Positions 2,286 through 38,079 of a stretch of 53,360 nucleotides of DNA are shown here, one piece after another (the first letter of the stretch is position 1; each line of letters starts with the position of its first letter). Below the pieces are notes generated by a model, which was not told where the DNA came from, searched no databases, and saw only the letters and a program-made list of their open reading frames with translations. The position numbers and the translations under genes were made by a program. This stretch comes from Candidatus Cloacimonadota bacterium (GTDB taxonomy: Bacteria; Cloacimonadota; Cloacimonadia; Cloacimonadales; Cloacimonadaceae): assembly GCA_020532545.1 (NCBI GenBank), contig JAJBAW010000017.1, positions 1 through 53,360 on the forward strand. The letters run 5' to 3'.

Positions 2286-2475
2286 CTTGTTCTCCTTTTG
2301 TTTAGCTTGTGTTAAACTATTATCCTGGTCTATAAAGACCAAGCTCTGCTTTCGACGTTATATCACCAGGTGCAAGCCTCTTAAGTATGATACATAAGAG
2401 CTTGCTTTATTACTCTTTCTGCAGAGATAGATACCCAGGAAAATTGATATCTGCCTGTGCAGAAAGTGCTTCATT
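2145..2475 (-). repeat. Left copy of a ~330-bp duplicated block (gene start, leader and upstream tail)
   Basis: This block nearly matches 4625-4955. It covers the first ~45 codons of the metalloprotease gene, its ribosome site, a leader with two hairpins, and a fossil of the 3' end of the 4888-5400 gene. Read on the minus strand just after the stop at 2476, 2410-2475 still encodes EALSAQADINFPGYLSLQKE then two stops, against EALSAQADINFPGYPSMQKV in the intact gene. One hairpin is CTTGGTCT-TTAT-AGACCAGG (2324-2343). Similarity ends abruptly at the stop codon of the 2476-4764 gene, which marks the duplication breakpoint. Confidence 0.85.
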
Positions 2476-4764: not shown

Positions 4765-4955
4765 CTTGTTCTCCTTTTGTTTAGTTTGTGTTAGACTTTT
4801 TTCTTGGTCTATAAAAACCAAGCTCTGCTTTCGACATTATATCACCAGGTGCAAGCCTCTTAAGTATGATATATATAAGAGCTTGCCTTATTGCACTTTC
4901 TGCATAGATGGATACCCAGGGAAATTGATATCTGCCTGTGCAGAAAGTGCTTCTT
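4625..4955 (-). repeat. Right copy of the ~330-bp duplicated block
   Basis: Near-identical partner of 2145-2475. Here the upstream part is still the functional 3' end of the 4888-5400 gene, so this copy looks ancestral. The hairpin at 4803-4822 reads CTTGGTTT-TTAT-AGACCAAG. It differs from the left copy by changes that keep pairing (T-A for T-G, T-G for C-G), which hints at a structure kept in the mRNA leader. A second bulged stem pairs CAAG-CTCTTA with TAAGAG-g-CTTG around 4850-4885. No T-run follows it, so a terminator role is uncertain. Confidence 0.8.
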
Positions 4956-5400
4956 TGTCATGAAGTAGTATTATCTGGGAAGAGAATTTCATTGGGTTTG
5001 TTACTGCGATTTCTCGCCAATTCTCAGAATTATCGCAGCTTATAGCCCCAATGTTTTGCATGAATTCAGGATAATGTGCGCTACCATCAAATGTGATCTC
5101 ATCCTTAACATGATCGAGCATCAAAAAATAAGTTTCATCATCGTAGCAGATAGGTAAAATGGGGGATTTATAGTTCCAATAGCGTTTGTATTGATGAGAT
5201 TGAAATACCAGTGAGACAGAGGGATGATTCGAATCACTATGAAAGATAGGGATAGAGTAATATGTTCCGCTGGCACCAGTACACGAATATTTAAAACTCC
5301 CAGATACACCCATTGGCGGCTGTAACGCGTTTTGGGCACATAATGGCACAGTCCATACAGCCATTACGAAAACCATAGCCATGTTCTTCAAGGTAATCAT
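4888..5400 (-). CDS. Small secreted protein of unknown function
   Basis: The 170-residue product starts with a signal peptide (MITLKNMAMVFVMAVWTVPL, cleavage probably after CAQ), and the ATG follows a GAGGAG ribosome site. The mature part is rich in aromatic residues and Ser/Thr (YKRYWNYKSPILPICYDDET), with three Cys residues, and looks like a beta-sheet protein. I do not recognise the family. It is the first gene of the minus-strand group that continues into the two metalloproteases, so co-export or a chaperone/inhibitor role is possible but unsupported. The last 21 codons lie in the duplicated block, and a decayed copy of them sits at 2410-2475. Confidence 0.7.
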   Translation of the reverse strand: MITLKNMAMVFVMAVWTVPLCAQNALQPPMGVSGSFKYSCTGASGTYYSIPIFHSDSNHPSVSLVFQSHQYKRYWNYKSPILPICYDDETYFLMLDHVKDEITFDGSAHYPEFMQNIGAISCDNSENWREIAVTNPMKFSSQIILLHDKEALSAQADINFPGYPSMQKVQ

Positions 5401-5891
5401 AAAAACTCCTCATAGAGATTAGTTATCAACGCATATTCGCCATAAAAAATGGATTCATGGAAGAAGGTGGGAAAATCAGATAAGCTTTTCTTCAATGATT
5501 TCTCTTATGCTTGCAAGATATTCAATATCCATTTTCCAGTCAATAAGAAAATTTAAGTATTGTCAAAATTATGATTATACTGTTCAAAACAGAGATCCAT
5601 GCTTAGGCTATTCTCTGGTAAATCTCAAAAAAACAGATCTGAATAATCCCAGATCAAGTACAATCTGGGTCACATCAAAGACGAAATGAATTCCAAGCAT
5701 GGTCTTAATGTATATGCTATAAAGGCATAAAATATGAAAACCTCACCAGAAAAATCATGCAGATAAGTAACTGTATGACTGATATATTCACATCTATGAG
5801 GGTAACAACCGGTCCTGCAGACGAAGATTCTACTTGACAAAAAAGCAGGCTTTGCGGACTGTGTTTTAACATATGCAACAAGAACAACGCT
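5401..5891. other. Non-coding divergent region
   Basis: This A/T-rich stretch separates the minus-strand protease group from the plus-strand tRNA operon. A 64-codon frame at 5495-5689 has no ribosome site and no recognisable composition, so I do not call it. A TTGACA lies at 5834-5839, 52 nt before the tRNA. No repeats or conserved RNA fold were seen. Confidence 0.6.
5834..5869 (+). promoter_or_regulatory. Possible promoter of tRNA-Asp
   Basis: TTGACA at 5834-5839 matches a -35 box. At the usual 17-nt spacing the -10 candidate is poor (GACTGT); a better A/T-rich TTTTAA lies 24 nt downstream, which is too far. Only the -35 half is convincing. Confidence 0.3.
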
Positions 5892-5969
5892 GGGGGCGTA
5901 GTTCAGTTTGGTTAGAACGTCTGCCTGTCACGCAGAAGGTCGCGAGTTCGAGTCCCGTCGCTCCCGCCA
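5892..5969 (+). tRNA. tRNA-Asp (anticodon GTC)
   Basis: Acceptor arms GGGGGCG (5892-5898) and CGCTCCC pair with one G-T. The anticodon stem TCTGC/GCAGA closes a CTGTCAC loop with GTC at 5927-5929. The T-arm has GTTCGAGTC. The discriminator base is G, and the CCA at 5967-5969 is encoded in the DNA. Confidence 0.97.
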
Positions 5970-5976
5970 GAAATTC

Positions 5977-6001
5977 GGACGCCTTTTGGGGCGTCCTTTT
6001 T
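5977..6001 (+). terminator. Rho-independent terminator after tRNA-Asp
   Basis: A perfect 7-bp G+C-rich stem (GGACGCC/GGCGTCC) is followed by five T. It lies between the tRNA and waaA, whose ATG is only 17 nt past the T-run, so waaA mRNA would need read-through or a promoter inside the tRNA gene. Confidence 0.88.
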
Positions 6002-6018
6002 CTTATGAGAGAAGAATT

Positions 6019-7254
6019 ATGAAACTTTATAAAGCTCTGTTTTCCCTGCTTAACCTCTTGCTCGAGGTGATTTACTATATCAGCTATCCACTGCTGAGGC
6101 TAATAGCTGCGCTATATCATTATAATGAAGGGTTTCAAACGCCCGCAAAGCGCATGGACAGGCCGATCTTGATTCACGCAGCCTCTGTGGGTGAGGTCAA
6201 TGCCGCAGTTGCTTTGATCCGAGAATTGCTGAGGGAAGGCTATCCCATCCATATAAATACAGTTACCATCACAGGCAGAGCTTTGGCGCAGAGCATTTTC
6301 CCAGAGCTGACCATCAGTTTGGCTCCTGTGGATGTCTTGCACCTCCGGCAGAGGCAGATGCGTATGTTGCAGCCTCGCTTGATCCTGATCGTGGAAACGG
6401 AAATCTGGCCGAATATGCTGTATGCAGCCAGACAATACAATATTCCCATCGTCTTTGTCAATGCCCGGCTTTCGGAGAAATCTCTGAAAAGCTATCAGAA
6501 GATAGGGCCCCTGCTGCGGATGATTGGCAGCTCTATCAAAGCCATTATGGCGCAGAGCGCAGAGGATAGGGCGCGCTTTGAAAGGCTCTTCAATAATGTC
6601 CCGGTAACTGAGGCTGGGAATCTGAAATATTGTCTTAGTTTACCTGATTATGATGAGAGTAAAATCAAAGCGGATCTGGGCATCAGAAAAGACGATTTCG
6701 TTATCTCTTGGGGCAGTTCACGTCCCGGAGAAGAGGAACTTATTTTAGGGATATTAGCAGAACCAAAACGCAACATTCCTGCTCTGAAAGTGATCCTGGC
6801 TCCCAGACATCCGAAACGCATCCCGGAAGTTGAGAGATTGCTGAGGGGCACGAACTATCAAAAGCTCTCGACATTCGATCCCCAAAGGGGTTGGAACATC
6901 CTTTTGATTGATACCCTGGGGCAATTGAGCGCAGCCTATGCTGTCTCTGATCTGGTGATAGTGGGAGGCAGTTTTTACGATTTTGGGGGGCACAATCCCC
7001 TGGAGCCTGCCTACTATGCCAAAGCGATCATCATGGGAGAATATCACTCCTCCTGCCGGGATTCGGTGCGGACATTGCAAAAAGCTAGCGCGATAGTAAT
7101 CTCAAACCCGGATAAGCTCTTGGAGGACATCCTGACTTTGGCCGCCAACCGTCCACAAAGGGAAGAAATGGGCCGAAAAGCAAAAATAGTCTTGACGGAA
7201 AATGCGCATGCGCTAAACGTTCATATCAGAGGTATAAAACAATGTCTGAAATGA
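6019..7254 (+). CDS. waaA: 3-deoxy-D-manno-octulosonate (Kdo) transferase
   Basis: This GT30 enzyme transfers Kdo from CMP-Kdo to lipid IVA at the inner face of the inner membrane. The product has 411 residues, the usual length. A hydrophobic N-terminal anchor (residues 7-33) precedes HAASVGEVNAA, whose Glu59 corresponds to the catalytic Glu of WaaA. The C-terminal half has the family motif GGSFYDFGGHNPLEPAYY for the donor sugar. The ATG at 6019 follows GAGAGAAGAA; a longer frame starting inside the tRNA is not real. The next gene overlaps it by 13 nt. Its presence indicates a lipid A-Kdo outer membrane. Confidence 0.93.
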   Translation: MKLYKALFSLLNLLLEVIYYISYPLLRLIAALYHYNEGFQTPAKRMDRPILIHAASVGEVNAAVALIRELLREGYPIHINTVTITGRALAQSIFPELTISLAPVDVLHLRQRQMRMLQPRLILIVETEIWPNMLYAARQYNIPIVFVNARLSEKSLKSYQKIGPLLRMIGSSIKAIMAQSAEDRARFERLFNNVPVTEAGNLKYCLSLPDYDESKIKADLGIRKDDFVISWGSSRPGEEELILGILAEPKRNIPALKVILAPRHPKRIPEVERLLRGTNYQKLSTFDPQRGWNILLIDTLGQLSAAYAVSDLVIVGGSFYDFGGHNPLEPAYYAKAIIMGEYHSSCRDSVRTLQKASAIVISNPDKLLEDILTLAANRPQREEMGRKAKIVLTENAHALNVHIRGIKQCLK

Positions 7255-8246
7255 TTCGTGAAGCGATGTATTACAAGAAGCTCGAGGGTGATCTATTGCA
7301 GTGCGAGCTCTGCCCACATTACTGCGTAATCCCGGTGGGGGAGATGGGCAAATGCAGATCCCGGGAGAATATCGCGGGTAAACTTTGGGCAGTGAATTAT
7401 GCCAAAGCTTTGGGTATCTCGGTGGATCCCATCGAGAAAAAGCCCTTTTATCATTTCCGGCCCGGCACCAGGATCTTGTCTCTGGGGCCGAATTCCTGTA
7501 ATCTGAACTGCCAGTGGTGTCAGAATTATCAGATTTCACAATTTGAAAGCCCGACTATAAACCTTTCTTTGGAAGAGCTTTACAGTGGGGTCTTGAGGCA
7601 TAATCCCACCACCAGGCAGATTGCCTTTACCTATACTGAGCCGCTGACCTGGTATGAATATATCCTCGATTTTGGGGTTAAATATCCAGATGTCAAGATT
7701 GCTCTGATCTCCAATGGCTTTGTGAATCCAGAGCCTCTGGCTCAGCTCCTACCACATATCGCAGCGATGAATATCGATATCAAGGGGATCACGGAAGATT
7801 TGTACAAAGCCCAATGCGGCGGAAGTTTGAAGCCGATAAAAGAGAATATCCGTGCGGTCTGGGAAGCCGGTGTGCATCTGGAGCTTACTTTGCTGCTCAT
7901 CCCCGGCCTCAACGACAAAGAGGAAGAGCTGAGTGAACTGGTGGATTTTATCGCTGAGATCAGCCCTGAAATCCCGCTGCATATCTCGGCCTATTATCCT
8001 ACTTATCTAACCGATCTGCCTGCGACCAAGGTGCAGGATATTGCCCGGGCTCGCAAGATTGCGCTGAAAAAGCTCTCTTATGTATATGGTGGGAATTTGG
8101 CTGAGGATGGTTTTCAGGATTGTCTGTGTCCGGGCTGCGGCAAGACGCTGATTCGTCGGTCACTGTTTTCTCGCGATTGCCAAATCAAATCGGACAATAA
8201 GTGTCCGCATTGTGGGAGATTGATCTACGGGCTATATGACCACTAA
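7242..8246 (+). CDS. AmmeMemoRadiSam-type radical SAM enzyme (pyruvate formate-lyase activase-like)
   Basis: The 334-residue product carries the radical SAM cluster motif CNLNCQWC (Cys86, Cys90, Cys93). Ahead of it is the N-terminal cysteine set CELCPHYC (21-28) and the family signature DPIEKKPFYHFRPG. The C-terminal end adds a ribbon-like CLCPGCG...CPHCG. These features match the radical SAM member of the AmmeMemoRadiSam system, named for its frequent association with Memo and AMMECR1 homologues. Neither partner is visible nearby. The ATG at 7242 overlaps the end of waaA; a second ATG three codons on is possible. The substrate of this family is not established. Confidence 0.88.
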   Translation: MSEMIREAMYYKKLEGDLLQCELCPHYCVIPVGEMGKCRSRENIAGKLWAVNYAKALGISVDPIEKKPFYHFRPGTRILSLGPNSCNLNCQWCQNYQISQFESPTINLSLEELYSGVLRHNPTTRQIAFTYTEPLTWYEYILDFGVKYPDVKIALISNGFVNPEPLAQLLPHIAAMNIDIKGITEDLYKAQCGGSLKPIKENIRAVWEAGVHLELTLLLIPGLNDKEEELSELVDFIAEISPEIPLHISAYYPTYLTDLPATKVQDIARARKIALKKLSYVYGGNLAEDGFQDCLCPGCGKTLIRRSLFSRDCQIKSDNKCPHCGRLIYGLYDH

Positions 8247-8598
8247 GCTACTCAAAAAGCTCACCATCAGTGATGTGATCCTGATTCTAGCTTGCCTGAT
8301 AGTAGCAGGTCTGCTGTGGCGCAACCATGCTGCGGCAGAGGGCGAAATGCTCTATATATATAAGGATGGCTCCCTGTGGGGAGAATATGCCTTGGCTCAA
8401 GATAAAGTCATCGAAATTGACCAGCATAATACTGTGCAGATCCTGGACGGCAAAGCGCGTATACTCAGCTCTGACTGTCCGGATAAACGCTGCGTAAAAC
8501 AGGGCTTTAACAAAACCATGCCCATCATCTGTCTGCCTAACCGCCTGGTGCTGGAATTTGAACATCGTAGCAAAGAGCGCAGACTGATACTGCAATAG
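8236..8598 (+). CDS. NusG domain II (NusG_II/DUF1312) membrane-anchored protein
   Basis: The product has 120 residues with one N-terminal membrane segment (residues ~12-30), so the rest is probably outside the membrane. The soluble part has the small beta fold of NusG domain II, with the typical stretch SSDCPDKRCVKQGF followed by MPIICLPNRLVLEF; its paired cysteines (CPDKRC, and Cys in IICLPN) are characteristic of the family. It overlaps the radical SAM gene by 11 nt, suggesting translational coupling. In other anaerobes such proteins sit beside ApbE and redox genes; apbE occurs here but 12.5 kb away. Confidence 0.85.
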   Translation: MTTKLLKKLTISDVILILACLIVAGLLWRNHAAAEGEMLYIYKDGSLWGEYALAQDKVIEIDQHNTVQILDGKARILSSDCPDKRCVKQGFNKTMPIICLPNRLVLEFEHRSKERRLILQ

Positions 8599-8605
8599 GA
8601 AAAAT

Positions 8606-10537
8606 ATGAAGATCGCACTATACGCTTCCAGTCACGGCTTTGGCCATGCCTCTCGAATTGCTGCCCTGGCAGATAGTTTCATCCGCTTTGGCATCTACAT
8701 ATATATATGTACAGACCGTCCCCGTTTTCTTTTTCAAGATTTGAAGGCTGAGGACTATCAATATCGGGAAATCAGCATCGATAGGGGAGTGGTGCATGGC
8801 GCTAATCTGGTTACGGATCTGCCTGCCACGAAGAGCGCTTTGCTCAGGCTGTTTGGCCAAAGAGAAGAGATCGTGGCCCGGGAAGTGGAGTTTCTGCGCC
8901 AGGAGCAGATCGATCTGGTGATTGCGGATATTCCCTTCTTTATCGTGGAAGCTTGCGGCTATGCGGAGGTTCCGGTCTTTGGGGTTTCAAACTTTGATTG
9001 GGCCTTTATCTATGGCGGCATCTTCGCAGGTGACGCGGATATGCAGCCGATAATCAATACCATCTGGAGCCTGCATCGCAGAATGGACAAGAGCTATTTG
9101 CTGGACTTGGGTAATAAAGACAGTGTGCCCGGCTTCAAGAATCCTGTGCCTGGAGGGCTGCTGACCCGGGAAAAGCCTACTTTCAAAGACATTCGCAGCG
9201 CATATGACATCGCCTTGGGCGTGCCCATCTTGCTGATGATGTTTGGTGGAGAGGGGACTATAGATCTGCCTTTATCAGAGATCTGTAAAGCCTGGACTGG
9301 CGTGATAATGAGCCCGTATCAGGCCTCTGGGATCGACAATTTAATCAGAGTTTCGCCGGATGAAGATTTCCTCAGTCTCATGCAGGCTGCCGATCTGGTG
9401 ATTTGTAAGCCAGGGTACAGTACTTTCTCGGAAATCCTGTCTTTGGGCAAATCCATGATCTGCGTTCCGCGCAAGAACTATCCTGAAGAAGTAGTTCTCC
9501 TGGCTGGAATAAAAGACTATCCGCCGGCGGTGGTCGTAGAAGATTTTCCACAAGATATGGACAGCATCAGGACGCTTTTTGCACAGGTTCCTCACGGGGA
9601 TTTTGCGCAAAAGACTTCCAATAGCGAGCTGGCAGGAAAGATGCTGGCTGATTATCTGAGGCTAAAGTATCCTGAAGATAGACTGCTCAGCGTTTGCGAT
9701 CTGGGCTCAAACAATATGAACTTTATTTTGTATAATAAGAGCAGGGGAGAGCTGATCCACCGGACCTGGTGCAGTACCTATCTGGGCCTGGATATAGCGG
9801 ATGGGGTACTGCCAGAGCAAAGTCTGCTGCGAGCTTTTGAGGCTATAGGGGACATTCTGAATAGGGACCGCTGGCTGCCCTCAGAAAAGTATCTCATTGC
9901 TACAGGGGTGAATAGAGTGGCAGCAAACGCCTCTGAACTGCTGGATCGCATCTCGAAAGAGTATCAATATAAGACCAAGATCATCAGCGCAAAAACCGAG
10001 ATGCACTATGCCTGGCAGGCTGCTGTGCCTCGGATGAAAGAGGGCATGAATAACCTCGTGATCGATATCGGGGGAGCCAGCACAGAAATCGCCTGGTTGG
10101 ATGCTAAGGAAAGAATTCGTGGTATCTCCCTGGATTTCGGTTTGCAAAGCCTTTTGCGCTATGCAGAAGCAGGCAAGTCTCCGGCTCTTAAGGTGCAAGA
10201 TGCGATTAAGGATCTCCCTAAACTGCAGAATGTCAAGATCATCGCAGTGGGACTTACGGCTACAGTGTTGGCCAGGGTCCTGAGGAAAATTAATTATCGC
10301 AAGGTTTTGCATAGTTCTGAGCTGGTAATCAGTCTAAAAGATATTCAGGACTACAAATCTGCGCTGGAAGATGATGAGAATAATGGGTATAAACAACTGG
10401 TAAATAGCAGGTTTGAACTAAATACCATCAGCCTGGCAGCTATGGTAATGGAGCAATTACTGGACAGATATGGCTGCTGTGATTTTATGGTATGCAACGA
10501 TGGAATATCTTTAGGATATGCAAAATGGATAAAATGA
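8606..10537 (+). CDS. Fusion of a glycosyltransferase-like domain with a Ppx/GppA phosphatase domain
   Basis: The product has 643 residues in two parts. Residues 1-~355 look like a GT-B glycosyltransferase: N-terminal SSHGFGHASR, similar to the GHGFGHATR motif of the glycosyltransferase-like half of plant L-arabinokinase, and a MurG-like KPGYSTFSE site near the domain end. From ~360 the Ppx/GppA fold begins, with CDLGSNNMNF (Asp365, phosphate 1 loop), ISAKTEM (a Glu aligned to the catalytic Glu of exopolyphosphatases) and DIGGASTEI (Asp487, phosphate 2 loop). Both halves keep their key motifs, so the enzyme is probably active. The joint substrate is unknown; polyphosphate, (p)ppGpp or a sugar phosphate are options. 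The ATG at 8606 follows AGGA; the next gene overlaps its end. Confidence 0.82.
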   Translation: MKIALYASSHGFGHASRIAALADSFIRFGIYIYICTDRPRFLFQDLKAEDYQYREISIDRGVVHGANLVTDLPATKSALLRLFGQREEIVAREVEFLRQEQIDLVIADIPFFIVEACGYAEVPVFGVSNFDWAFIYGGIFAGDADMQPIINTIWSLHRRMDKSYLLDLGNKDSVPGFKNPVPGGLLTREKPTFKDIRSAYDIALGVPILLMMFGGEGTIDLPLSEICKAWTGVIMSPYQASGIDNLIRVSPDEDFLSLMQAADLVICKPGYSTFSEILSLGKSMICVPRKNYPEEVVLLAGIKDYPPAVVVEDFPQDMDSIRTLFAQVPHGDFAQKTSNSELAGKMLADYLRLKYPEDRLLSVCDLGSNNMNFILYNKSRGELIHRTWCSTYLGLDIADGVLPEQSLLRAFEAIGDILNRDRWLPSEKYLIATGVNRVAANASELLDRISKEYQYKTKIISAKTEMHYAWQAAVPRMKEGMNNLVIDIGGASTEIAWLDAKERIRGISLDFGLQSLLRYAEAGKSPALKVQDAIKDLPKLQNVKIIAVGLTATVLARVLRKINYRKVLHSSELVISLKDIQDYKSALEDDENNGYKQLVNSRFELNTISLAAMVMEQLLDRYGCCDFMVCNDGISLGYAKWIK

Positions 10538-11298
10538 ATGAATTAAGCTTTGGAGCCGATGATTTTAAGGTGATTGCCGGTCCCTGCTCTATAGAAGATT
10601 ACGAAAGCCTTTACGAAACCGCGAAAGACCTGAAAGCGCGTGGTATCACTATGTTACGTGGAAGTGCCTATAAACTGAGAACCTCAGTGCACAGCTTCCG
10701 CGGGCTGGGTGATGCCGGAATCATGCACATGGCCCAGGTAGGTAAAGAACTGGGGCTCATCACCGTATCTGAAATTACTCAGACCGATAAGGTGGAATAT
10801 ATGGCCAGCCATATCGACATCCTGGTAGTGGGGACCCGAAATATGAACAACTACCCCTTGCTGGAGCTTTTAGGAAAGATAGATAAACCGGTAATTCTCA
10901 AACGCGGAATCGCTGCCACCTATGATGAATGGTTGGCTGCCGCGGAGTACATCATCGAAAGCGGAAATGAGCGTGTGATCCTCTGTGAACGCGGAATCCG
11001 CACTTTTGAGACTGGAACGCGTTATACGCTGGATATTTCGGCCATAGCAGTGATGAAGCACAAAAGCAATCTACCCATCATCATCGATCCCTCTCATGCT
11101 GCCGGAAATCGGACATTGGTCCCATCTTTGGCTTTGGCCGCTATCGCTGCCGGAGCAGATGGACTGATGATCGAATCTCAAATAAACCCCAAGGACAGCA
11201 TTTGTGATGCAAATCAAACCGTGAGCCCGGACGTGATCAGCAAAATACTGCAACTCGTTCCGGAACTGCGCTTGCTCTTAAAGAAGGCTAATTTTTGA
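10525..11298 (+). CDS. aroF: 3-deoxy-7-phosphoheptulonate (DAHP) synthase, AroF/AroA-beta type
   Basis: First step of the shikimate pathway: phosphoenolpyruvate plus erythrose 4-phosphate gives DAHP. The product has 257 residues without an added chorismate mutase domain. Motifs include VIAGPCSIED, LRGSAYKLRTS, VGTRNMNNYPLL, LKRGIAAT, LCERGIRTF and IIDPSHAAGNR (metal and phosphate ligands). I prefer the ATG at 10525 because AGGA lies 8 nt upstream; the ATG at 10534 is the alternative, and a frame starting at 10492 lacks support. The close relative KdsA is excluded by the GTRNMNNY/RGIRTFE signature. Confidence 0.9.
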   Translation: MDKMNELSFGADDFKVIAGPCSIEDYESLYETAKDLKARGITMLRGSAYKLRTSVHSFRGLGDAGIMHMAQVGKELGLITVSEITQTDKVEYMASHIDILVVGTRNMNNYPLLELLGKIDKPVILKRGIAATYDEWLAAAEYIIESGNERVILCERGIRTFETGTRYTLDISAIAVMKHKSNLPIIIDPSHAAGNRTLVPSLALAAIAAGADGLMIESQINPKDSICDANQTVSPDVISKILQLVPELRLLLKKANF

Positions 11299-12575
11299 AA
11301 TACTATATAGAGACCTATGGCTGCCAGATGAATGTGGCGGATAGTGAACTGATCATCTCCATCTTGAATGATGCAGGGCACACTCTGTCACAAGACATTG
11401 ATGCAGCGGATGTTCTGCTCTTTAATACCTGCTCGGTGCGTGATCATGCAGAACAGCGGGTTTTGGGCAGAATCTCAAACGAACGACATCGTAAAAAGAG
11501 CAAACCAGAGCTGAAGATAGTGCTCTTGGGCTGCATGGCACAGCGAATAGGGCAGAGGCTGATCTCGGAAGATCTCGGCATAGATTACGCCGTGGGGGTG
11601 GATCAATACAGAGCCCTTCCCCGCCTTCTGGATCAGAATCAGGGCTCAGAACTGGATTTCGATTCCTCTGAAAACTATGAACGTCTGTTGCCGGTTCACC
11701 AGGGCGAACAATGCGCTTTTGTGACTATTATGCGAGGCTGTAACAATTACTGTTCTTACTGCATCGTGCCCTATGTGCGTGGTAGAGAACGCAGCCGTCC
11801 TTATGAAGATATCCTGCTGGATGTGCAGAACGCAGTTGCTCGAAATATGATGGATGTCACCCTGCTCGGGCAGAACGTCAATTCATATCACTGGAAGGAT
11901 CTAAGCTTTCCAGCTTTGCTTGAGAGACTGCAGGAAGATGTGCCCCAGCTTTACCGTTTACGTTTTGTGACCTCTCATCCCAAAGACCTGTCCGATGGCT
12001 TGGTTCAGGTAATGGGAAAAGGCGGTAAGCTCTGTGAACATATACATTTGCCTATGCAAAGCGGTAGTAACGAAAGTCTAAAACGCATGAATCGCTCCTA
12101 CAGCTATGATCAGTATCTAAATCGCGTAAAAGCTCTCAGAAAGGCCGTGCCAGGCATCGCTATTACCACAGACCTCATTGCCGGCTTTCCGGGTGAAACC
12201 GAAGAGCAATTTGAAGCTACTCTATCTGCAATGCGCGAAATTGAGTTTGATTATGCATTTTGTTTTAAATATAGCGAACGGGAAGGAACTGCAGCGGCAA
12301 AGTATCTCGATCAGCTTCCGGAAGCGATTCGCCTCAGTAGATTGCAAAAAATGATCGAACTGCAGCGAGAAATCAGTTTAAAGATATATCGCGCTCAGAT
12401 CGGAACAGAAATCGAAGTCTATGTGGAAGACTTTAGCAAAAAAAGTATGCGTCAGGTATCAGGCAAGACCAGGGATTTTAAAATCGCGGTACTGACTGGT
12501 AATGAATCTAAGATTGGAACCTTGGCGCGGGCGAAAGTTATCGATGCCACAGCGGGGACCCTGATCTGTGAGTGA
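11295..12575 (+). CDS. miaB: tRNA (N6-isopentenyl adenosine-37-C2) methylthiotransferase
   Basis: Adds the methylthio group to i6A37 of tRNA. The 426-residue product starts with the UPF0004 domain (YIETYGCQMN, Cys10), has the radical SAM motif GCNNYCSYCIVPYVRG (Cys149, Cys153, Cys156) and ends in a TRAM-like domain (~360-426). The start codon is TTG at 11295 in a TTGA overlap with the aroF stop; AAGAAGG sits 7 nt upstream and no in-frame ATG fits the conserved N-terminus. MtaB-type relatives exist, but the YGCQMN and PYVRGRERSR context favours MiaB. Confidence 0.92.
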   Translation: MKYYIETYGCQMNVADSELIISILNDAGHTLSQDIDAADVLLFNTCSVRDHAEQRVLGRISNERHRKKSKPELKIVLLGCMAQRIGQRLISEDLGIDYAVGVDQYRALPRLLDQNQGSELDFDSSENYERLLPVHQGEQCAFVTIMRGCNNYCSYCIVPYVRGRERSRPYEDILLDVQNAVARNMMDVTLLGQNVNSYHWKDLSFPALLERLQEDVPQLYRLRFVTSHPKDLSDGLVQVMGKGGKLCEHIHLPMQSGSNESLKRMNRSYSYDQYLNRVKALRKAVPGIAITTDLIAGFPGETEEQFEATLSAMREIEFDYAFCFKYSEREGTAAAKYLDQLPEAIRLSRLQKMIELQREISLKIYRAQIGTEIEVYVEDFSKKSMRQVSGKTRDFKIAVLTGNESKIGTLARAKVIDATAGTLICE

Positions 12576-31035: not shown

Positions 31036-31506
31036 TTATTTTCTCATATATTTGCAAAACCTCAGCTTATATCCGCTGGCAGCAAGAAGCTCCGTGCAGG
31101 CTTGTTCTTGCCAGAGCGACCAATCCAGTTCCGGGAACTTGCGATCTCCTTCTATATCCGCTTCGATGTGCGTGATATACAGCTCGTCCACCAAGGGCAA
31201 AGCCTGCTCGAAGATGGCTGCTCCACCGATGATAAAGGCATCCGGCTCTGCTGCGATGGCCTCTGCCAGGCTATGATAGACTATCAGGTCTTTTCCGGCA
31301 AAAGCTTCATCCCGGCTCAGCACGATGTTCTGGCGGTTTGGCAAAGCCCGGCCTATAGAAAGATAGGTCTTGCGGCCCATGATGATGCTGTGACCAGTAG
31401 TCTCTCTCTTGAAGTGAGCCAGGTCTTCCGGGATATGCCAGGGCATCTGATTGTCTTTTCCGATCACACGGTCCTGTGTCATGGCGACGATGATTTTCAG
31501 GCTCAA
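31036..31506 (-). CDS. folA: Dihydrofolate reductase
   Basis: NADPH-dependent reduction of dihydrofolate. The 156-residue product has the N-terminal IVAMTQDRVIGKDNQMPWHI, with the Asp/Glu-region catalytic helix PEDLAHFKRETTGH, then IIMGRKTYLSIG and IIGGAAIFEQALP. The start is TTG at 31506 in a TTGA overlap with the mlaF stop, the same junction seen at aroF-miaB. Length is typical. Confidence 0.93.
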   Translation of the reverse strand: MSLKIIVAMTQDRVIGKDNQMPWHIPEDLAHFKRETTGHSIIMGRKTYLSIGRALPNRQNIVLSRDEAFAGKDLIVYHSLAEAIAAEPDAFIIGGAAIFEQALPLVDELYITHIEADIEGDRKFPELDWSLWQEQACTELLAASGYKLRFCKYMRK

Positions 31507-32249
31507 AACTTCCCCACTTCAAAGAAATGATCAATTTGCGGGATTTTGGCCGTTTTGGCTTCATCCAGAGTGCCATAAAAAAGCATCGTGCCAGAATCCA
31601 GAAAAATGATCTTATCGGCAATGCGGTGGATGGAGGCCAGCTCATGGGTCACGATCACGATGGTCATTTTGAACTGCTCTTTGAGACTCAAAATAAGCTC
31701 ATCCAGGGAAGCAGAGGTGATGGGATCCAAGCCTGCGGAAGGCTCATCACAAAAGAGTAAAGGCGGATCCATAGCCATAGCTCTGGCCAAAGCAGCCCGT
31801 TTCTTCATGCCCCCGGAAAGTTCGGAGGGGAACTGGTACATAGCATTTGACAATCCTACCAGAGAAAGTTTTACGCGGATCATCCGGTCTCTTACTTTGG
31901 CGGAAAGCTGGGTGTGCATCTCCAGGGGAATGGAGATATTCTCATAGAGCGAGATGGAATTCAGGAGTGCTCCACTTTGGAAGAGCATGCCAGTCTTCTT
32001 GAGCACTTCGTTAAAGGCATTTTCATCCATGGTCAGGATATCTTCGCCCCAAAATTTCACACTGCCGGCGGCGGGTTCGTAGAGCCGAAGCATGTTTTTG
32101 AGCAAGGTGGTCTTTCCACTACCGCTACCGCCCAGAATGACCGTGATTTCCTGGGGAAGGATATCCACGTTGATGTCTGACAAAATGGTCTTGGTGCCGT
32201 ATTTGGCGACCATATTGCGGATTTCGATGACAGGCTTTAGCTCTTTCAT
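31503..32249 (-). CDS. mlaF: MCE-system ABC transporter ATPase (MlaF-like)
   Basis: Powers lipid transfer by the permease encoded just upstream. The 248-residue product has Walker A GGSGSGKTT, signature LSGGMKKRAALARA, Walker B LLFCDEPSAGLDP and the H-loop IVTHE. The LSGGMKKR form of the signature is typical for Mla/MCE ATPases. It overlaps the mlaE stop by 4 nt. The operon order MCE, lipoprotein, permease, ATPase marks it as part of a trans-envelope lipid transporter. Confidence 0.92.
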   Translation of the reverse strand: MKELKPVIEIRNMVAKYGTKTILSDINVDILPQEITVILGGSGSGKTTLLKNMLRLYEPAAGSVKFWGEDILTMDENAFNEVLKKTGMLFQSGALLNSISLYENISIPLEMHTQLSAKVRDRMIRVKLSLVGLSNAMYQFPSELSGGMKKRAALARAMAMDPPLLFCDEPSAGLDPITSASLDELILSLKEQFKMTIVIVTHELASIHRIADKIIFLDSGTMLFYGTLDEAKTAKIPQIDHFFEVGKF

Positions 32250-33325
32250 AAGTATAACAAACTAAATACCGCATCAAACAAAATAACGGCAAAAATTGAG
32301 CTAACCACAGCGGCTGTAGTGGCTTTACCCACTCCCTCGGCTCCACCTTTTACCTGGAAACCGTAGTAGGAACCGATGATCACGATCACCCAGGCAAACC
32401 AGATACTCTTGCTAAAAGTTACGATAAGATCTTTGATGGTAATAATATCAATAGCGCGGGTAAAGAAAGTATGGGGCGCAATATCGAGCATACCAATGGC
32501 GATAAAAGCACCGCCCAATATACTGACTATGATGCTGAACATCACCAGGAGCGGCATGACAATGGTGATGGCATGAAACTTTGGTACCACCACATAAGCG
32601 ATGGGGTTGAGCGCCATCATTTTCAAAGCGTCTATTTCCTCTGTGACTTCCATGGTGGCAATCTCAGAGGCGATGGCACTGCCGCTGCGACCGGCAACTA
32701 TGATTGCTGTGATGAGCGGCGCCATTTCCCGAACCATGGTGATGGACAGAAGATCTGCTATAAAGACATTGGCACCAAAATTCTTGAGCTGCACGCCGGA
32801 TTGCAAGGCCAGGATAAAGCCTATGATCAGAGAAAGCAAGGCCACGATGGGCAAAGCCTCCGAACCAAGCTGTGCCGCCTGTTGCAGGAGCGAACCCCGG
32901 CGTTGATCCTTACGGCTAAATAGTCCCACTCCACTGTAATAGAAGATCTCAGCGGCCAGGGTGAGAGCCTTGACCAGCTCATTGTATGAATTTAAGAGAC
33001 TATCTCCTACTTGCTCAAAAAAGCCCATTTTGGGTGGCTTTTCTACCAGGGGTAGCTCCAGAGTGCTGTAGGTATCTATCATGGCCTGGATCTTGGCTGG
33101 TACTTTCTGGAAAATTTGCTCCTTAGAGTACTCGCTCAGTTTCAGGTGCATCTCATCCAAAAATGCCACACCGGCACTATCGATCATGGTGAGTTCTCCC
33201 AGATCGATCTTGCTGATGGTGCCCTCTTTAAACAGCCTACTGATCTCTTTGGCAGCATCAGGCACTGTATGATGATTCAGTTCGCCTGTGAGGGTCAGGG
33301 CATCGCTGGTTAATTCTATTTGCAT
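32246..33325 (-). CDS. mlaE: MCE-system permease with N-terminal STAS domain (MlaB-MlaE fusion)
   Basis: The product has 359 residues from the ATG at 33325, which overlaps the preceding stop (TAATG). Residues ~1-95 are a STAS domain (IDLGELTMIDSAGVAFLDEM), as in the separate MlaB. The MlaE permease core follows, with the conserved FILALQSGVQLKNFGANVFI, TMVREMAPLITAIIVAGRSG and EEIDALKMMALNP and five or so membrane segments. A start 17 codons upstream (33376) would lie inside the previous gene and precede the domain, so it is less likely. MlaB and MlaE are often separate genes; here they are one chain. Confidence 0.9.
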   Translation of the reverse strand: MQIELTSDALTLTGELNHHTVPDAAKEISRLFKEGTISKIDLGELTMIDSAGVAFLDEMHLKLSEYSKEQIFQKVPAKIQAMIDTYSTLELPLVEKPPKMGFFEQVGDSLLNSYNELVKALTLAAEIFYYSGVGLFSRKDQRRGSLLQQAAQLGSEALPIVALLSLIIGFILALQSGVQLKNFGANVFIADLLSITMVREMAPLITAIIVAGRSGSAIASEIATMEVTEEIDALKMMALNPIAYVVVPKFHAITIVMPLLVMFSIIVSILGGAFIAIGMLDIAPHTFFTRAIDIITIKDLIVTFSKSIWFAWVIVIIGSYYGFQVKGGAEGVGKATTAAVVSSIFAVILFDAVFSLLYL

Positions 33326-35487
33326 TAGTAAAACAGGCTCATTCTTAAGTAGGCGCTGTAGTTGTAAGTCAACCAATCCCGGATTGCTTCATTATATTGA
33401 AAGTTCAAGCTCGCATCCAGGGAGATATTGCGGTAAACACGGATATTGATACGGTTCTCATTATCTATGCTCGGCTTCATACCGGTATCACTAAAGGGAA
33501 AGAGAGCATCGAAAGTAGAATTCAGTGAAAGGAAATTGAAGATATTCACTGCGGAAAAGATCAAAGTTGCTTCCAAACCACGGTCAAAGCGGTCTTCTGC
33601 TTCTGTAAAGACATCGTAGCTGATGCTATCGATCATTACAGAACTGGCAGAGCTGAGGGATTTGAGATTGAGATCTTGCACCCAGCCATAACCACTGCGC
33701 AAGCTCACCCAGGTTTTGGGGCTGAAAGCAACCCGGTAGGTAAGCCCTGTGCCTTCTTTGAGCCGCAGAGGAAACAGCGCAATTTTGGTGCGGACCTTGT
33801 CTTGATTCAAGGCCCTTTCAAGCTCAAGGCCTTCGGAATCATATACTATATTGTTCTTGGCATCTGAAAAATACTTATACTCGTCCCAAAAATGGGTGCT
33901 CAGATCCGCTCTTCCATAAAAGGCGAGGTTGTTGAAAAACTTCTTTTCCTTTCCCCAAGGATAGAGCAGGAGAGTATTTTTCAACGAGTAATTATCCTTA
34001 TTGATGCGGAAATCTTCGTTATCTATGGTGTAGTTTGCCCCTATATCATAGATGCTGCGCATGTTGTAATGAAAGGGGCGGAATTCATGATCGATAGTGT
34101 TGTCAAATTGTCCCACCAGATTCAAGGCGAAGGTGGGATTATTCTCATCTACTTCGTTGTTTGAAGCCACATTGATATTAGCGTGGATGGCGCCTTTATG
34201 AAACTTTACCTGTCCCACGCCCAGCTCATCAGCCAGCACTCCGGCTCCGATCAAGTTGTTATTCGCATCAGCGGCAGTATCCACGATCAAGGTCAAGACC
34301 GGGCTTTCACCTTCGATGAGGCTCACAGTGATAAAGTCTCTGAGGGAGCTCCAGGAATTTCCGCCCAGGGTAACCATGTAGTTTCCTGCAGGCAGAATCC
34401 ATAATCCTTCTTCGATGCCGTGTTCATCTTCGCCCAGGCTGATGCCAGTTCCTACCTTGGTATATCCGTAATCATCTTCATTTTTTACCCACAAATCATA
34501 GATCATGCGTACCCTGGTCTGGGCGTCGTCCAAAATGCGCACCCTGAGTTCACTCCAGGTTCTTTGCACCACGGATCTCATTCTAGGAAAGACATCTATA
34601 GTAGATTTGATGTCTTCATTATAGCCAGTGACAATTCTATATCGTCCCGGCTCCAGTAGATGCGGAACGTTGTATTCGCCCGTAGCTTCGCTGATCTTTG
34701 TATTCAGGCTATCCACACCTTCTATGCGATATTGCAAATCGCTGGTCATAGGCGCTTTGGTGCTCAGCAGCAATTCCCCAAAGAGTTTATGGGTCTCCTG
34801 ATTCTCCAATTGTTGGAAATACACTCGCTCCGGCGCACTCATATCACTGGTAAAGTCCCTTTGTCCGGGAGTGATAGGCCGACCGGCAAAATGCATGATA
34901 CATAGTGCTGCAAAAGCATTGGTTTCAGCCATCACCATTTCGTTGAAGAGCTGCACCAGATAGATGTTGGAGTCGTCCGTGAGTTCCCGATAGTGTCCAT
35001 TGCGATGCGTGAGGATAGTCCTCTCACTGGTGCTATCCCGCAGAGTAAATTCCATGCGCAAGAAGGCACGAGGACTGGCCCCTTCTATCTTTTCAATGTT
35101 CAGGATCGAGGTTTCCAGATAGTAATTCGGATCTGCCGCTGTAGCATCACGGTACACATTCCCAAAGATGTTATATGCTCTCAGGCGATCCGCCACGATA
35201 TTTGGCACGGAGTCCGACAGGCGATTTGCCCACAGATCGTCACGCATAAAGCGCACTTGGGAAAAGCTTTCTTTGGCCACGAGTTGATTGCGGTTGTAGA
35301 TACGATTCACACGGCTGTTCATTACATACAGACTCTTCCCGTTGGAAACTTCCATTTTGAGTTCGGGCTTTTCTGTGGATTTTTGATAATCGAGCACATA
35401 GTAATTCGTTTGCCGTTCCACTTTCCCGAAACACCCACTGAGTGCCAGGGTGATGATTGCCAGACAGATAAGGTAAAATCTTTTCAT
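33325..35487 (-). CDS. Lipoprotein with PqiC-like N-terminal domain and C-terminal beta-barrel
   Basis: The product has 720 residues from the ATG at 35487 (an ATG two codons earlier sits too close to the AGAGG site). The signal sequence has a lipobox LALSGC (Cys19). Residues ~25-200 resemble ABC-transport auxiliary lipoproteins (PqiC/DUF330-like: TNYYVLDYQ, then DRLRAYNIFGNVY). Residues ~230-420 are beta-rich repeats (LEPGRYRIV; LPAGNYMVTL). From ~430 to the end alternating aromatic strands (ALNLVGQF, LAFYGRADLSTHFW, VRTKIALFPLRL) end in LRMSLFY, a terminal aromatic typical of outer-membrane barrels. It lies between the MCE protein and the permease. It probably forms the outer-membrane end of the transporter; the barrel is inferred from strand pattern only. 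Confidence 0.75.
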   Translation of the reverse strand: MKRFYLICLAIITLALSGCFGKVERQTNYYVLDYQKSTEKPELKMEVSNGKSLYVMNSRVNRIYNRNQLVAKESFSQVRFMRDDLWANRLSDSVPNIVADRLRAYNIFGNVYRDATAADPNYYLETSILNIEKIEGASPRAFLRMEFTLRDSTSERTILTHRNGHYRELTDDSNIYLVQLFNEMVMAETNAFAALCIMHFAGRPITPGQRDFTSDMSAPERVYFQQLENQETHKLFGELLLSTKAPMTSDLQYRIEGVDSLNTKISEATGEYNVPHLLEPGRYRIVTGYNEDIKSTIDVFPRMRSVVQRTWSELRVRILDDAQTRVRMIYDLWVKNEDDYGYTKVGTGISLGEDEHGIEEGLWILPAGNYMVTLGGNSWSSLRDFITVSLIEGESPVLTLIVDTAADANNNLIGAGVLADELGVGQVKFHKGAIHANINVASNNEVDENNPTFALNLVGQFDNTIDHEFRPFHYNMRSIYDIGANYTIDNEDFRINKDNYSLKNTLLLYPWGKEKKFFNNLAFYGRADLSTHFWDEYKYFSDAKNNIVYDSEGLELERALNQDKVRTKIALFPLRLKEGTGLTYRVAFSPKTWVSLRSGYGWVQDLNLKSLSSASSVMIDSISYDVFTEAEDRFDRGLEATLIFSAVNIFNFLSLNSTFDALFPFSDTGMKPSIDNENRINIRVYRNISLDASLNFQYNEAIRDWLTYNYSAYLRMSLFY

Positions 35488-35503
35488 TTTCATATCCTCT
35501 TAA

Positions 35504-36703
35504 TCAATTTCCCCTGATTAAAACAGCGGGGTTATCCACGATTTGGCGGGAAAAGTCGTTGAGATTTGCAGTAGCATCGCGCATATTTTCCATGATCTCG
35601 GCAAGATCATCCTGCGAGCGCAATACAGTTCTATTCAAGGTATTTATCAGCACACCAGTACGTTGCACCGTGACTCCCAGATTGCCAACCATGTCTTTTA
35701 AGTTCGCATCGGCTAATTGTCCGGCCAGGATGTCAAGATTGGACATCATTGAGCCGAATGCATCAGAGGTCAAAATCTTATTAACTGAATCCAGGGAGCT
35801 ATTGATCGTCGCACTGACGTACGCGATCTCCTTTGTGGTATCCAGTACCAGAGTATTGGTATTTTCACCGATGTTGTTGATGTGAAATCTGGTATCCTGG
35901 ACCAGGTAAGTGGTCTGTTCGGCAATCTGATCGATATTATCATTAAGGTTTCGGGTGATCAGCACCAGCTCGCTATTCAGAGTATTGGTCAGCAGTTCCA
36001 GAGAGGTCACGGTGGTGACGTTCAGAGAATCGATCGCGTTCACTGCGGATGCGCTGATATCATCGATATTCTTGCTGAGACCGGTAGTCATATCCGCGAC
36101 ATTATTGGCGATTTTGCTGATTGCGTCCAGGGTGCCGGCCAGATTCGATTGGGTTCCTTCCAGGATGAGACCGGTTTGCTCCAGGATTTTGGAGATGTGC
36201 TTCTGGTTTTCGTCATTGGTAAGTTTGCCAATATTGGCGGCGATAAGCTCGACCTGCTCCACAATAGTCATGGCGCGCTCGGAGATATCGTCTATCAGTG
36301 TGGAACCAGATTTGATCTGGCTTCCGGGAGTCATGTTTTTGGCTTCATTGGTTCCGCCCTTGATCTCCACAGATTTCATGCCGGTGAGAAGTGCCGTACT
36401 GAGTACAGCCTCTGTGTCCACTTTGATCGGTGTTCCTGGCTCAATATTTATCGTGACAATCACTTTATTCACATCTTTAGGATCGATCTTGACTTCTTCC
36501 ACCCGGCCTACCTTGATGCCCTGATAGTTCACGGTACTGCCTACCTGCAATCCGCTGACTGGGTAGTCATCAAATACGATAAAGTAAGAATCCCATTTCT
36601 GGGTTAGCCGATTTCCGGCCACGACGGCAGCAAAAACCAGAATCAACACGGCTCCTACCACCAGGAATACTCCCAGGCGAACTTTAGTAGCTTTTGATAC
36701 CAT
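35504..36703 (-). CDS. MCE (MlaD-family) substrate-binding protein
   Basis: The 399-residue product has one N-terminal membrane segment (residues ~8-30) and one MCE domain at ~38-115 (FDDYPVSGLQVGSTVNYQGI). The C-terminal ~270 residues are largely helical with heptad-like spacing, consistent with a coiled-coil tube or needle. The ATG follows AAAGGAG. It is encoded immediately upstream of the lipoprotein-barrel gene and is likely the periplasmic bridge of the lipid transporter. Confidence 0.9.
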   Translation of the reverse strand: MVSKATKVRLGVFLVVGAVLILVFAAVVAGNRLTQKWDSYFIVFDDYPVSGLQVGSTVNYQGIKVGRVEEVKIDPKDVNKVIVTINIEPGTPIKVDTEAVLSTALLTGMKSVEIKGGTNEAKNMTPGSQIKSGSTLIDDISERAMTIVEQVELIAANIGKLTNDENQKHISKILEQTGLILEGTQSNLAGTLDAISKIANNVADMTTGLSKNIDDISASAVNAIDSLNVTTVTSLELLTNTLNSELVLITRNLNDNIDQIAEQTTYLVQDTRFHINNIGENTNTLVLDTTKEIAYVSATINSSLDSVNKILTSDAFGSMMSNLDILAGQLADANLKDMVGNLGVTVQRTGVLINTLNRTVLRSQDDLAEIMENMRDATANLNDFSRQIVDNPAVLIRGN

Positions 36704-36714
36704 CTTTGCTCCTT

Positions 36715-38079
36715 TTATTCATAGATTAAATCACCGGTGATCAGGCGATTGCTAATTTTAACCGGATTTAGTGCCTTGATATTCACCCGGCCATCACAGA
36801 CCACATCTGTGCCAAAGCTCACGTCGCCCTCAATTTTGAGTTCTTTGCATCCTGATAATGAGGGTGGAGCTTCAAAGCGTTTTTGCATTTGTTCGATATT
36901 GCCATAGTATTTGGGGTCCAGCTCAATATAGGGTGGTTTGGACATTCCGTGCTTCAGTCTGATCTGATACTGATCGTTCAGTTCATAGGCATCAGACCAC
37001 ACGCTGAGCAGGTCCTCGGTTTTCTTCACCGGGGAGAATCTCTGCCGGGGTACTATCACAGCCCGGGCTCCGGTGAAAGAGCTGATTGCGGCTCCCATCG
37101 CGGTTTCCAATTGATACACTTTGATTCCGTCCACCTCTTTGGGATTCACGATCAAGGGCAAAAGCATCAGGCCATCATTGGTAATGAGATGCCATTCCAG
37201 AGCCTTGAGATCGATCCAGAGATTATTGGTATTGAAATATCGGTATTTGTTGATATCCTGAAAAGCCTCAAGATCTTCAGCGGGACATTGGGCGATTTCA
37301 CGCAAGAGCAATTGGCCGTTTTCATCCTGAGCCAAATGTCCGCCTTTTTTATCCATCTCGCTGCGTTCACAGACTTCCATCAGGAAGGGGATATCATGCT
37401 CTTCCATGTAGGCAGCAATGGAGGCATCCACCGTGGCACCAAGGTTATCGGAATTCGACACAAAGGCATAGCGATAGCCGGTGGCGATCAGCTTTTCCAA
37501 AATTCCGGAGGTGGAAATAGCGGTATAGATATCTCCGTGTCCAGGAGGATTCCAGCGCTGATCTTTGTCTTTGGGCAGAAAAGGCGAGAGGTCTTCCTGC
37601 AAGATACGGGGGAATTTGTTCTGTACAAAGCTGATCGGTAGATCTTGTTTGGATAGATCAGGATATTTGTTCAGGTAATCCAAAGTGTCTTTTTCTGTGG
37701 CAAAGCTATTCATGAACATGAGCTGGATATCATAGCCGCTTTCGGATCTAAGAGCCAAAATGTGACGGGTGATGATGTCCAGAAAATTCATGTTTCCCTT
37801 CACTGGCAATAGGGATTTTGCCTTGGAAAGGCCCATACTGGTTCCCAGGCCACCATTGAGTTTGATCGCAACAATTTTGCGCAGGAGTCCCGCGCTACCT
37901 TTCGATTCGAGATTTTCAAAGGGGATTACAGTTTGAGGGCTGGGCGGACTAATGGTATCCTCCGGGATCTGGCCACTACTGCCTTTTTGCAAAGCTTCAT
38001 AATACGCCGAAAACGTGCGTATTACCATGTCTGACAATCCTTCTGCTTTCATCGCGCGAACAAACTGGTTTAGCATCAT
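36715..38079 (-). CDS. UTP-glucose-1-phosphate uridylyltransferase, eukaryote-type UDPGP family
   Basis: Makes UDP-glucose from UTP and glucose 1-phosphate. The 454-residue product belongs to the UDPGP (eukaryotic UGPase) family rather than to bacterial GalU: IKLNGGLGTSMGLSKAKSLL is the nucleotide loop, followed by NPPGHGDIYTAI and VSNSDNLGATVDA. The C-terminal end is a left-handed beta-helix (KIEGDVSFGTDVVCDGRV). Two consecutive ATG codons follow AAGGAAGG; the second (38076) is also possible. A UDP-N-acetylglucosamine pyrophosphorylase would be the alternative. It is co-oriented with hutU, 8 nt away. Confidence 0.85.
   Translation of the reverse strand: MMLNQFVRAMKAEGLSDMVIRTFSAYYEALQKGSSGQIPEDTISPPSPQTVIPFENLESKGSAGLLRKIVAIKLNGGLGTSMGLSKAKSLLPVKGNMNFLDIITRHILALRSESGYDIQLMFMNSFATEKDTLDYLNKYPDLSKQDLPISFVQNKFPRILQEDLSPFLPKDKDQRWNPPGHGDIYTAISTSGILEKLIATGYRYAFVSNSDNLGATVDASIAAYMEEHDIPFLMEVCERSEMDKKGGHLAQDENGQLLLREIAQCPAEDLEAFQDINKYRYFNTNNLWIDLKALEWHLITNDGLMLLPLIVNPKEVDGIKVYQLETAMGAAISSFTGARAVIVPRQRFSPVKKTEDLLSVWSDAYELNDQYQIRLKHGMSKPPYIELDPKYYGNIEQMQKRFEAPPSLSGCKELKIEGDVSFGTDVVCDGRVNIKALNPVKISNRLITGDLIYE

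Follow-up and report, generated by a model that had tools for sequence, protein, structure and literature searches.

Among the transport systems built on MCE proteins, MlaA, MlaB and MlaC are mostly confined to Proteobacteria, and for this reason the outer-membrane partner of many non-Proteobacterial MCE transporters is unknown (PMC10665443; this and the other papers named here are cited from excerpts). Here, we describe a four-gene MCE operon in a stretch of 53,360 nucleotides (the window; contig JAJBAW010000017.1 of assembly GCA_020532545.1, forward-strand positions 1 to 53,360) from a Candidatus Cloacimonadota bacterium. One of the four genes encodes a PqiC-like lipoprotein joined in a single chain to a predicted outer-membrane beta-barrel. 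We propose that the operon encodes an MCE lipid transporter that spans the envelope and has an outer-membrane barrel subunit of its own, and put the probability of this at roughly 0.78.

Several described systems share parts of this design. In Brucella abortus, the Mpc complex (MpcEFDA), composed of MlaEFD and a PqiC-like protein, co-purifies in pull-downs, and a periplasm-spanning arrangement has been proposed for it (PMC12436622). Mpc and the Cloacimonadota system are alike in having an MlaE/MlaF-type transporter, a needle-type MCE protein (here by sequence only), a PqiC-like outer-membrane lipoprotein, and no MlaA or MlaC homologue. However, the PqiC-like lipoprotein of Mpc stands alone as the last gene of its operon and the excerpted text describes no barrel subunit (PMC12436622), whereas the lipoprotein considered here is fused to a barrel or has one as its neighbor. 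Type I MCE operons of Proteobacteria likewise hold permease, ATPase, MCE and downstream DUF330 (= ABC_trans_aux) genes together, but the excerpt mentions no barrel, and the fusion found there is between DUF330 and MCE (PMC5561183). The association of MCE proteins with DUF330 lipoproteins, and DUF330-MCE fusions, are thus already known (PMC5561183). In E. coli PqiABC, an octameric PqiC ring receives the PqiB C-terminus (PMC10897342). PqiC has the fold and lipobox seen in the N-terminal domain of the present lipoprotein (PMC10897342; 8q2c), but PqiB has three MCE domains, PqiA has no ATPase domain, and PqiC is about 187 residues long without a barrel (PMC10897342).

Barrels have also been described beside related components. 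The MlaD system of Veillonella parvula likewise lacks MlaA and MlaC and has MlaEF and an MCE needle together with an outer-membrane barrel; in contrast to the arrangement here, the barrel is the C-terminal part of the MCE protein, and the system uses no outer-membrane lipoprotein (PMC10665443). The original prediction for this locus, made from the window sequence alone, held that MCE systems usually lack a barrel as outer-membrane partner. Veillonella MlaD is a precedent for a barrel on an MCE system, although with the barrel on a different chain. No MlaD barrel was found in the FCB group (Fibrobacteres, Chlorobi, Bacteroidetes) in the same account (PMC10665443). PelBC from Pseudomonas aeruginosa carries a ring of twelve PelC lipoproteins on the outer-membrane barrel PelB (PMC12141448), and PelC has been named a structural homologue of PqiC (PMC10897342). 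A lipoprotein ring mounted on an outer-membrane beta-barrel is the point of likeness; PelBC differs in exporting polysaccharide, in being made of separate proteins and in not being an MCE transporter (PMC12141448). Finally, the E. coli MlaFEDB-MlaC-MlaA system shares MlaE, MlaF (by best match only), MCE and STAS parts with the present one, in which STAS is instead fused to MlaE.

A tight four-gene operon

The MCE protein, the 722-residue lipoprotein, the STAS-MlaE permease and the MlaF ATPase form a tight four-gene operon (Table 1). This confirms the compact gene order that had been predicted; its coordinates were exact, and Pfam and NCBIfam agree with the assignments. Ten nt separate the MCE and lipoprotein genes, while the lipoprotein and STAS-MlaE genes overlap by 1 nt and STAS-MlaE and MlaF by 4 nt. 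The MCE protein matches MlaD PF02470 over residues 49-117 (Pfam, E 7.3e-14), and its most hydrophobic 19-residue window begins at residue 10. Its helix-like extension varies in length between relatives in a 23-row alignment. We saw no barrel-like C-terminus in the sequence of this 399-amino-acid (aa) protein, which gave weak matches to helical families. The permease chain matches MlaE over residues 147-356 (Pfam, E 1.7e-74) and TIGR00056 above cut-off (NCBIfam); in its STAS part, PF01740 is above cut-off and STAS_2 (10-85) just below. STAS-MlaE fusions are common, and this one is nothing new. The top NCBIfam match of the ATPase is the MlaF model, at a score under that model's cut-off.

Table 1 Features of the operon and its flanking genes (window coordinates)
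Feature	Position	Strand	Remarks
MCE (MlaD-type) protein, 399 aa	35504..36703	-	N-terminal transmembrane helix, one MCE domain, long helix-like extension ending RGN
Lipoprotein-barrel fusion, 722 aa (720 aa from second ATG)	33325..35493	-	
Lipobox cysteine codon (residue 21 from first ATG, 19 from second)	35431..35433	-	Next residue Phe
PqiC-like (ABC_trans_aux/DUF330) domain, residues 21-205	34879..35433	-	Pfam E 5.3e-10 for segment alone
Low-confidence linker, about residues 206-235, fusion junction	34789..34878	-	pLDDT <50 at mature 189-215 = residues 209-235
Beta-rich region, about residues 236-420	34234..34788	-	Secondary structure of AlphaFold2 model
Predicted C-terminal outer-membrane beta-barrel, residues 430-722	33328..34206	-	Probably 12 strands, ending LRMSLFY
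STAS (MlaB-like) + MlaE permease, single chain, 359 aa	32246..33325	-	From ATG at 33325
MlaF-type ATPase, 248 aa	31503..32249	-	ABC_tran E 9.1e-29
folA (dihydrofolate reductase)	31036..31506	-	Overlaps MlaF stop; outside conserved core
UTP-glucose-1-phosphate uridylyltransferase (UGPase)	36715..38079	-	11 nt upstream; outside conserved core

A PqiC-like domain with a lipobox

Translation from the first ATG of the lipoprotein gene gives 722 aa and translation from the second gives 720 aa, with the lipobox cysteine as Cys19. Since the second ATG is preceded by a better-spaced AGAGGA than the first, the 720-aa numbering is probably the true one. The lipobox reads LSGC; its cysteine is invariant across 30 aligned rows, and a crude lipobox pattern fits 28 of the 30 named relatives. 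By the E. coli sorting rule, a phenylalanine following the cysteine fits the outer membrane. The genome has matches to LolA and to a BamA-type Omp85 protein.

The full lipoprotein matches ABC_trans_aux in Pfam (E 9.3e-9, residues 54-187, 35.5 bits against a cut-off of 26), as do all 23 aligned N-terminal domains, fused and separate, at E <= 0.01. A profile of the N-terminal domain found E. coli PqiC (8q2c, E 9e-4) and Xanthomonas XCC0632 (2iqi, E 1.1e-3) in the Protein Data Bank (PDB). The PqiC match is significant only with this profile: the whole-protein profile gave weak matches to solved structures, with PqiC third at E 0.76, and direct searches of solved structures with the full protein and with the N-terminal segment returned nothing useful. 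Among the matches listed by Foldseek for the AlphaFold2 model, 2iqi was first (E 1.8e-9, TMt 0.84) and PqiC 8q2c sixth (TMt 0.68), before all barrels. Family match, profile and predicted fold thus support a PqiC-like N-terminal half, and the predicted PqiC-like domain with lipobox Cys19 was borne out by the fold prediction and by the ABC_trans_aux search. Two further PDB entries annotated as ABC-type transport auxiliary lipoprotein, 13hq and 13hr, gave weak matches to the N-domain profile (E 0.042); they contain 8 chains in one entry and 16 over the two, and may be related lipoprotein rings.

A predicted outer-membrane barrel

AlphaFold2 modeling of the mature protein (30 sequences) gave a mean predicted local distance difference test score (pLDDT) of 78.3 and a predicted TM-score (pTM) of 0.46. 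The model runs from the PqiC-like domain through a low-confidence linker and beta-rich domains to long antiparallel C-terminal strands. We read the beta-rich region as two domains, each with an L-x-PG/AG-x-Y motif (identified by eye in alignments); a PEGA match to it was found in one of 16 members (E 0.074). Modeled alone, the C-terminal part reached a pLDDT of 82.1 and a pTM of 0.73, and the best 50 of its 112 Foldseek matches to the PDB at E <= 0.001 were all outer-membrane barrel proteins. Between residues 433 and 721, 16 strand segments are predicted, and 12 of these alternate strongly (>=2.7 on a scale particular to this analysis). A column-shuffle control gave a mean of 4.9 alternating strands, with about 1 in 1000 shuffles reaching 12. 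With twelve strands, the presumed periplasmic turns would be 2-4 residues long, except for a single turn of 12 residues. By our reading, the other four strand segments (538-570, 613-631) look like extracellular hairpins. The last residue is tyrosine in all 29 complete named relatives. The C-terminal half is predicted to be an outer-membrane barrel, probably of 12 strands. The barrel ending LRMSLFY in the original prediction is supported by AlphaFold2, Foldseek and strand alternation, its closure remaining a prediction. Neither of the two outcomes named beforehand as refuting the prediction arose.

Of the two family searches that had been suggested, the one for ABC_trans_aux succeeded, whereas the window barrel did not match the barrel family DUF481, nor DUF3078 (Pfam). 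Both families do match several relatives, mostly weakly, and DUF481 exceeds its 21.1-bit cut-off in three of ten proteins scanned (L035, 28.9; L051, 24.3; L045, 22.7). This points to a diverged outer-membrane protein family. Against solved structures, the barrel profile returned antibody chains only, at E >1; a viral fold library yielded mostly other barrels (the best a DUF481 protein) together with unrelated matches.

Fused and separate forms across the phylum

To map the spread of the lipoprotein-barrel protein, we searched 124 genomes of the phylum, the window's own included. A homologue is present in 110 of them, and in 66 of the 70 of high quality. The match is one stretch across both halves in 84 genomes, two stretches in 16, and partial or fragmentary in 10 (counted by eye). 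The 84 unbroken matches cover essentially all 722 residues; one of these, in G042, has an internal TAG. Two of the 16 two-stretch genomes have the fusion, G061 with a longer linker and G060 with a broken frame; the other 14 have separate genes: a lipoprotein gene of about 205 aa, then an adjacent gene of about 520 aa with the beta-rich and barrel parts. The protein from this second gene has its own hydrophobic, signal-like N-terminus. In G055 it starts with a lipobox-like LSSC (L034 4099-5679), and judged from this motif the separate barrel protein may itself be lipidated.

That related lineages have two genes at this position, and that the fused gene in G060 contains a frame break (L037 3258-5495), could suggest that assembly or gene calling joined two genes artificially. 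The unbroken match in 84 of 110 genomes, with an internal stop only in G042, and the presence of both halves in one frame in all 30 named loci speak against this. We rejected an artefactual origin of the fusion, the chance of which we regard as negligible. The nearest named relative of the lipoprotein comes from a Candidatus Cloacimonadota metagenome-assembled genome (92% identity), and all 30 named loci belong to Cloacimonadota or Cloacimonetes.

ABC_trans_aux was found in 104 of the 124 genomes, with one match each, and these matches coincide in contig and position with the fused protein or its separate lipoprotein (compared by eye). MCE and MlaE were each found in 119 of the 124. MlaA and MlaC were found in none of the 124 genomes, while the E. 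coli and Caulobacter controls were positive. This is consistent with the earlier claim that the system needs only four genes, but a second MCE gene occurs in the present genome and in the majority of genomes of the phylum.

Linkage to MCE genes inside and outside the phylum

A profile of the beta-rich region plus barrel was then run on 386 genomes, the 124 from the phylum and 262 from outside it; the latter share only the taxonomic domain with the window. Matches were found in 25 of the 262, nine at E <1e-70 and 16 weakly, and we read the neighborhoods of the nine strong loci and of three weaker ones. In the nine strong loci, the barrel has as neighbors MlaE (9/9), MCE (8/9), MlaF (8/9) and a PqiC-like lipoprotein (7/9). 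None of the nine has the fused form; separate lipoprotein and barrel genes adjoin in seven. All seven of these lipoproteins gave ABC_trans_aux matches, with E-values from 0.0014 to 8.9e-20; two scored under the curated cut-off. Within the phylum, the barrel gene adjoins MCE or MlaE in all 63 loci inspected (63 distinct genomes of the 110), as it does in all 30 named loci, which probably overlap in species with the 63. MCE or MlaE thus lies beside the barrel gene in 72 of 72 genomes inspected, 63 in the phylum and nine outside.

Two of the outside loci have their own layouts. L124 (G251, 6007-12291) contains two tandem MCE genes, MlaE, MlaF and a 659-aa beta-plus-barrel protein, and no PqiC-like gene was found in this operon. 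In L117 (G228, 4302-9491), the barrel, MlaE and MlaF genes are together, and a 596-aa protein without a Pfam match occupies the usual place of the lipoprotein and MCE protein.

This linkage bears on whether the barrel is an unrelated outer-membrane protein, such as a porin or surface protein, fused through chance position and with no role in MCE transport. The barrel does belong to a broad class of outer-membrane proteins, as the mostly weak DUF481 and DUF3078 matches in relatives indicate, and C-terminal matches extend to proteins outside MCE operons: around the three weaker loci read (L125-L127), we saw no MCE operon. The association with MCE or MlaE in every one of the 63 in-phylum and nine strong outside loci argues the other way, as does the distribution of MlaE in the 14 phylum genomes that have no match to the protein. 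Seven of these have a single MlaE match (G006, G016, G019, G020, G025, G027 and G075), five have none, and two (G089 and G109) have two. The MlaE of four of the seven, those listed, are frames of 252-302 aa, the length found in the second MCE system. This pattern mostly fits, but does not prove, joint loss of the protein and its transporter. We consider an unrelated barrel improbable.

Origin of the fusion

The original prediction knew of no described example of such a fusion. The fusion is not the essential novelty, however: within the phylum and beyond it, there are lineages in which this operon encodes the lipoprotein and the barrel by two genes. The earlier reading of the locus is thus supported in part, and what is new at heart is a transporter that combines MCE, PqiC-like and barrel parts, occurs in several lineages and has the last two parts fused in Cloacimonadota. 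Searches of open-licence papers brought up none whose title or abstract opening presents an MCE operon that has both a PqiC-like protein and a barrel of its own, or a fusion of the two, which does not prove that none is in print.

We calculated three phylogenetic trees. A tree of the transporter proteins with 42 in-phylum rows (quick method) required 3 changes between separate and fused forms. Addition of seven outside rows, all with separate genes, gave 4 changes by a careful method, with a root split support of 75/86; in this concatenated tree the outgroup does not form one side of any branch. Absent from it are L048, L049 and L120, for which MlaE was not recovered, L038, whose stretch has no MlaE, and five rows from the family of the window. 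A midpoint-rooted tree of the beta-plus-barrel part required 2 changes; it omitted nine named rows and any row shorter than 380 residues, and scored as separate three loci whose barrel gene lacks a PqiC-like neighbor (L049, L117 and L124). The simplest reading of these trees is that separate genes are older and that the fusion arose in the window's order, with a weakly supported root. We tentatively read them as one main fusion, possibly followed by re-splitting in G055 and G057. In L052 (G116), the fused gene groups with family f10 and its MlaE, MlaF and MCE with f13, suggesting a probable gene replacement inside the operon.

Neighboring genes and the second MCE system

The UGPase, urocanase and folA neighbors were matched only in closer relatives (named loci and G046); in more distant loci they were not matched and the core genes persist. 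This bears on the substrate, which could be another hydrophobic compound, for example a glycolipid or hydrocarbon, in place of bulk phospholipid. MCE systems do vary in substrate, those of mycobacteria taking fatty acids and cholesterol (PMC9882608), and the genome carries a second MCE system. On the other hand, none of the neighbors tested (UGPase, urocanase, folA, glycosyltransferase) stays with the core in the distant loci examined, and so no metabolic partner is apparent. We consider such a substrate unlikely.

In the second system, an MCE protein of about 300 aa adjoins a protein of about 1000 aa (L084 1708-5646, L085 104-4042, L086 1425-5356, L090 4596-8439). The larger protein contains Peptidase_MA_2, a PD40 propeller and a C-terminal Omp85 domain. 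In these four loci the second MCE gene, like the first kind, lies beside a predicted outer-membrane barrel protein. This genome has two such gene pairs, on contigs C34 and C147 (L084 and L085), and their 1004-aa proteins are 89% identical, which may reflect duplication, strain mixture or contamination.

Elsewhere in the window, positions 1-6000 have a G+C content of 0.39-0.42 against 0.44-0.51 in the rest, and end near a tRNA-Asp (5892-5969). They are possibly a foreign segment.

Proposed mechanism

By analogy with Mla, MlaF would hydrolyse ATP and, together with STAS-MlaE, shift lipid into or out of an inner-membrane MCE hexamer. The MCE chain would cross the periplasm as a helical needle, as suggested by its sequence and by PqiB and Mpc, and would dock, as in PqiC, on the PqiC-like domain, whose N-terminal lipid would anchor it to the outer membrane. 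The beta-rich region and barrel, being on the same chain as the PqiC-like domain, may fix this dock in the outer membrane, and may form or line the site of lipid entry or exit there. Such a system would work without MlaA and MlaC.

Several observations weigh against this proposal. The whole-model pTM of 0.46 leaves the arrangement of the domains unfixed, the barrel reaches TM-scores of no more than 0.5 against the known barrels among the Foldseek matches listed, and the model contains two strand pairs unlike those of a membrane barrel. In four genomes of the phylum, components are missing from the stretch read even though sequence was available: MCE in G057, MCE and the PqiC-like gene in G115, MlaE or MlaF in G106, and MlaF in G059. 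Other gaps in the gene set fall at contig or stretch ends. Outside the phylum, G228 and G251 (2/9) have no neighboring PqiC-like gene, and G228 (1/9) also has no MCE gene. The 14 of 124 genomes without a match, which include four high-quality genomes of one genus (G016, G019, G020 and G027), imply that the system can be lost. Finally, the second MCE system with its Omp85-type neighbor could carry much of the lipid traffic.

The barrel could also serve only as an outer-membrane anchor for the PqiC-like part and the MCE needle, in which case lipid would enter or leave the inner leaflet at the ring without ever moving through or along the barrel. A barrel of 12 strands, the probable size here, is generally narrow for phospholipid. 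The Veillonella MlaD barrel was called too narrow for lipid passage by its authors (PMC10665443), and PqiC has been described as stabilizing the contact between needle and membrane (PMC10897342). An anchoring role fits our data as well as an outer-membrane exit does. Against it, a lipid anchor is already there and the barrel is a separate gene elsewhere, which suggests more than anchoring but is not decisive. We regard an anchor-only barrel as a serious alternative, a little short of even odds.

A wider form of the proposal concerns the family. These operons might represent a distinct, unrecognized class of MCE transporter, spread over several lineages, in which a PqiC-type ring and a dedicated barrel form the outer-membrane terminus. 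Because fusion fixes the ratio, there would be one barrel per ring subunit in Cloacimonadota, and an octamer-like ring would then carry a crown of about eight barrels around the needle tip, with lipid leaving between or through them. We advance this only tentatively, with the odds against it.

Implications

A trans-envelope MCE transporter with its own barrel subunit would give a conserved candidate for the outer-membrane partner: a lipoprotein-barrel pair that is genetically tied to the transporter, whether separate or fused. The fusion is an argument for lipoprotein and barrel acting next to each other, and it predicts that they occur in a fixed 1:1 ratio. As a single polypeptide, it makes both the contact of a PqiC-type ring with the outer membrane and the passage of lipid through the barrel directly testable.

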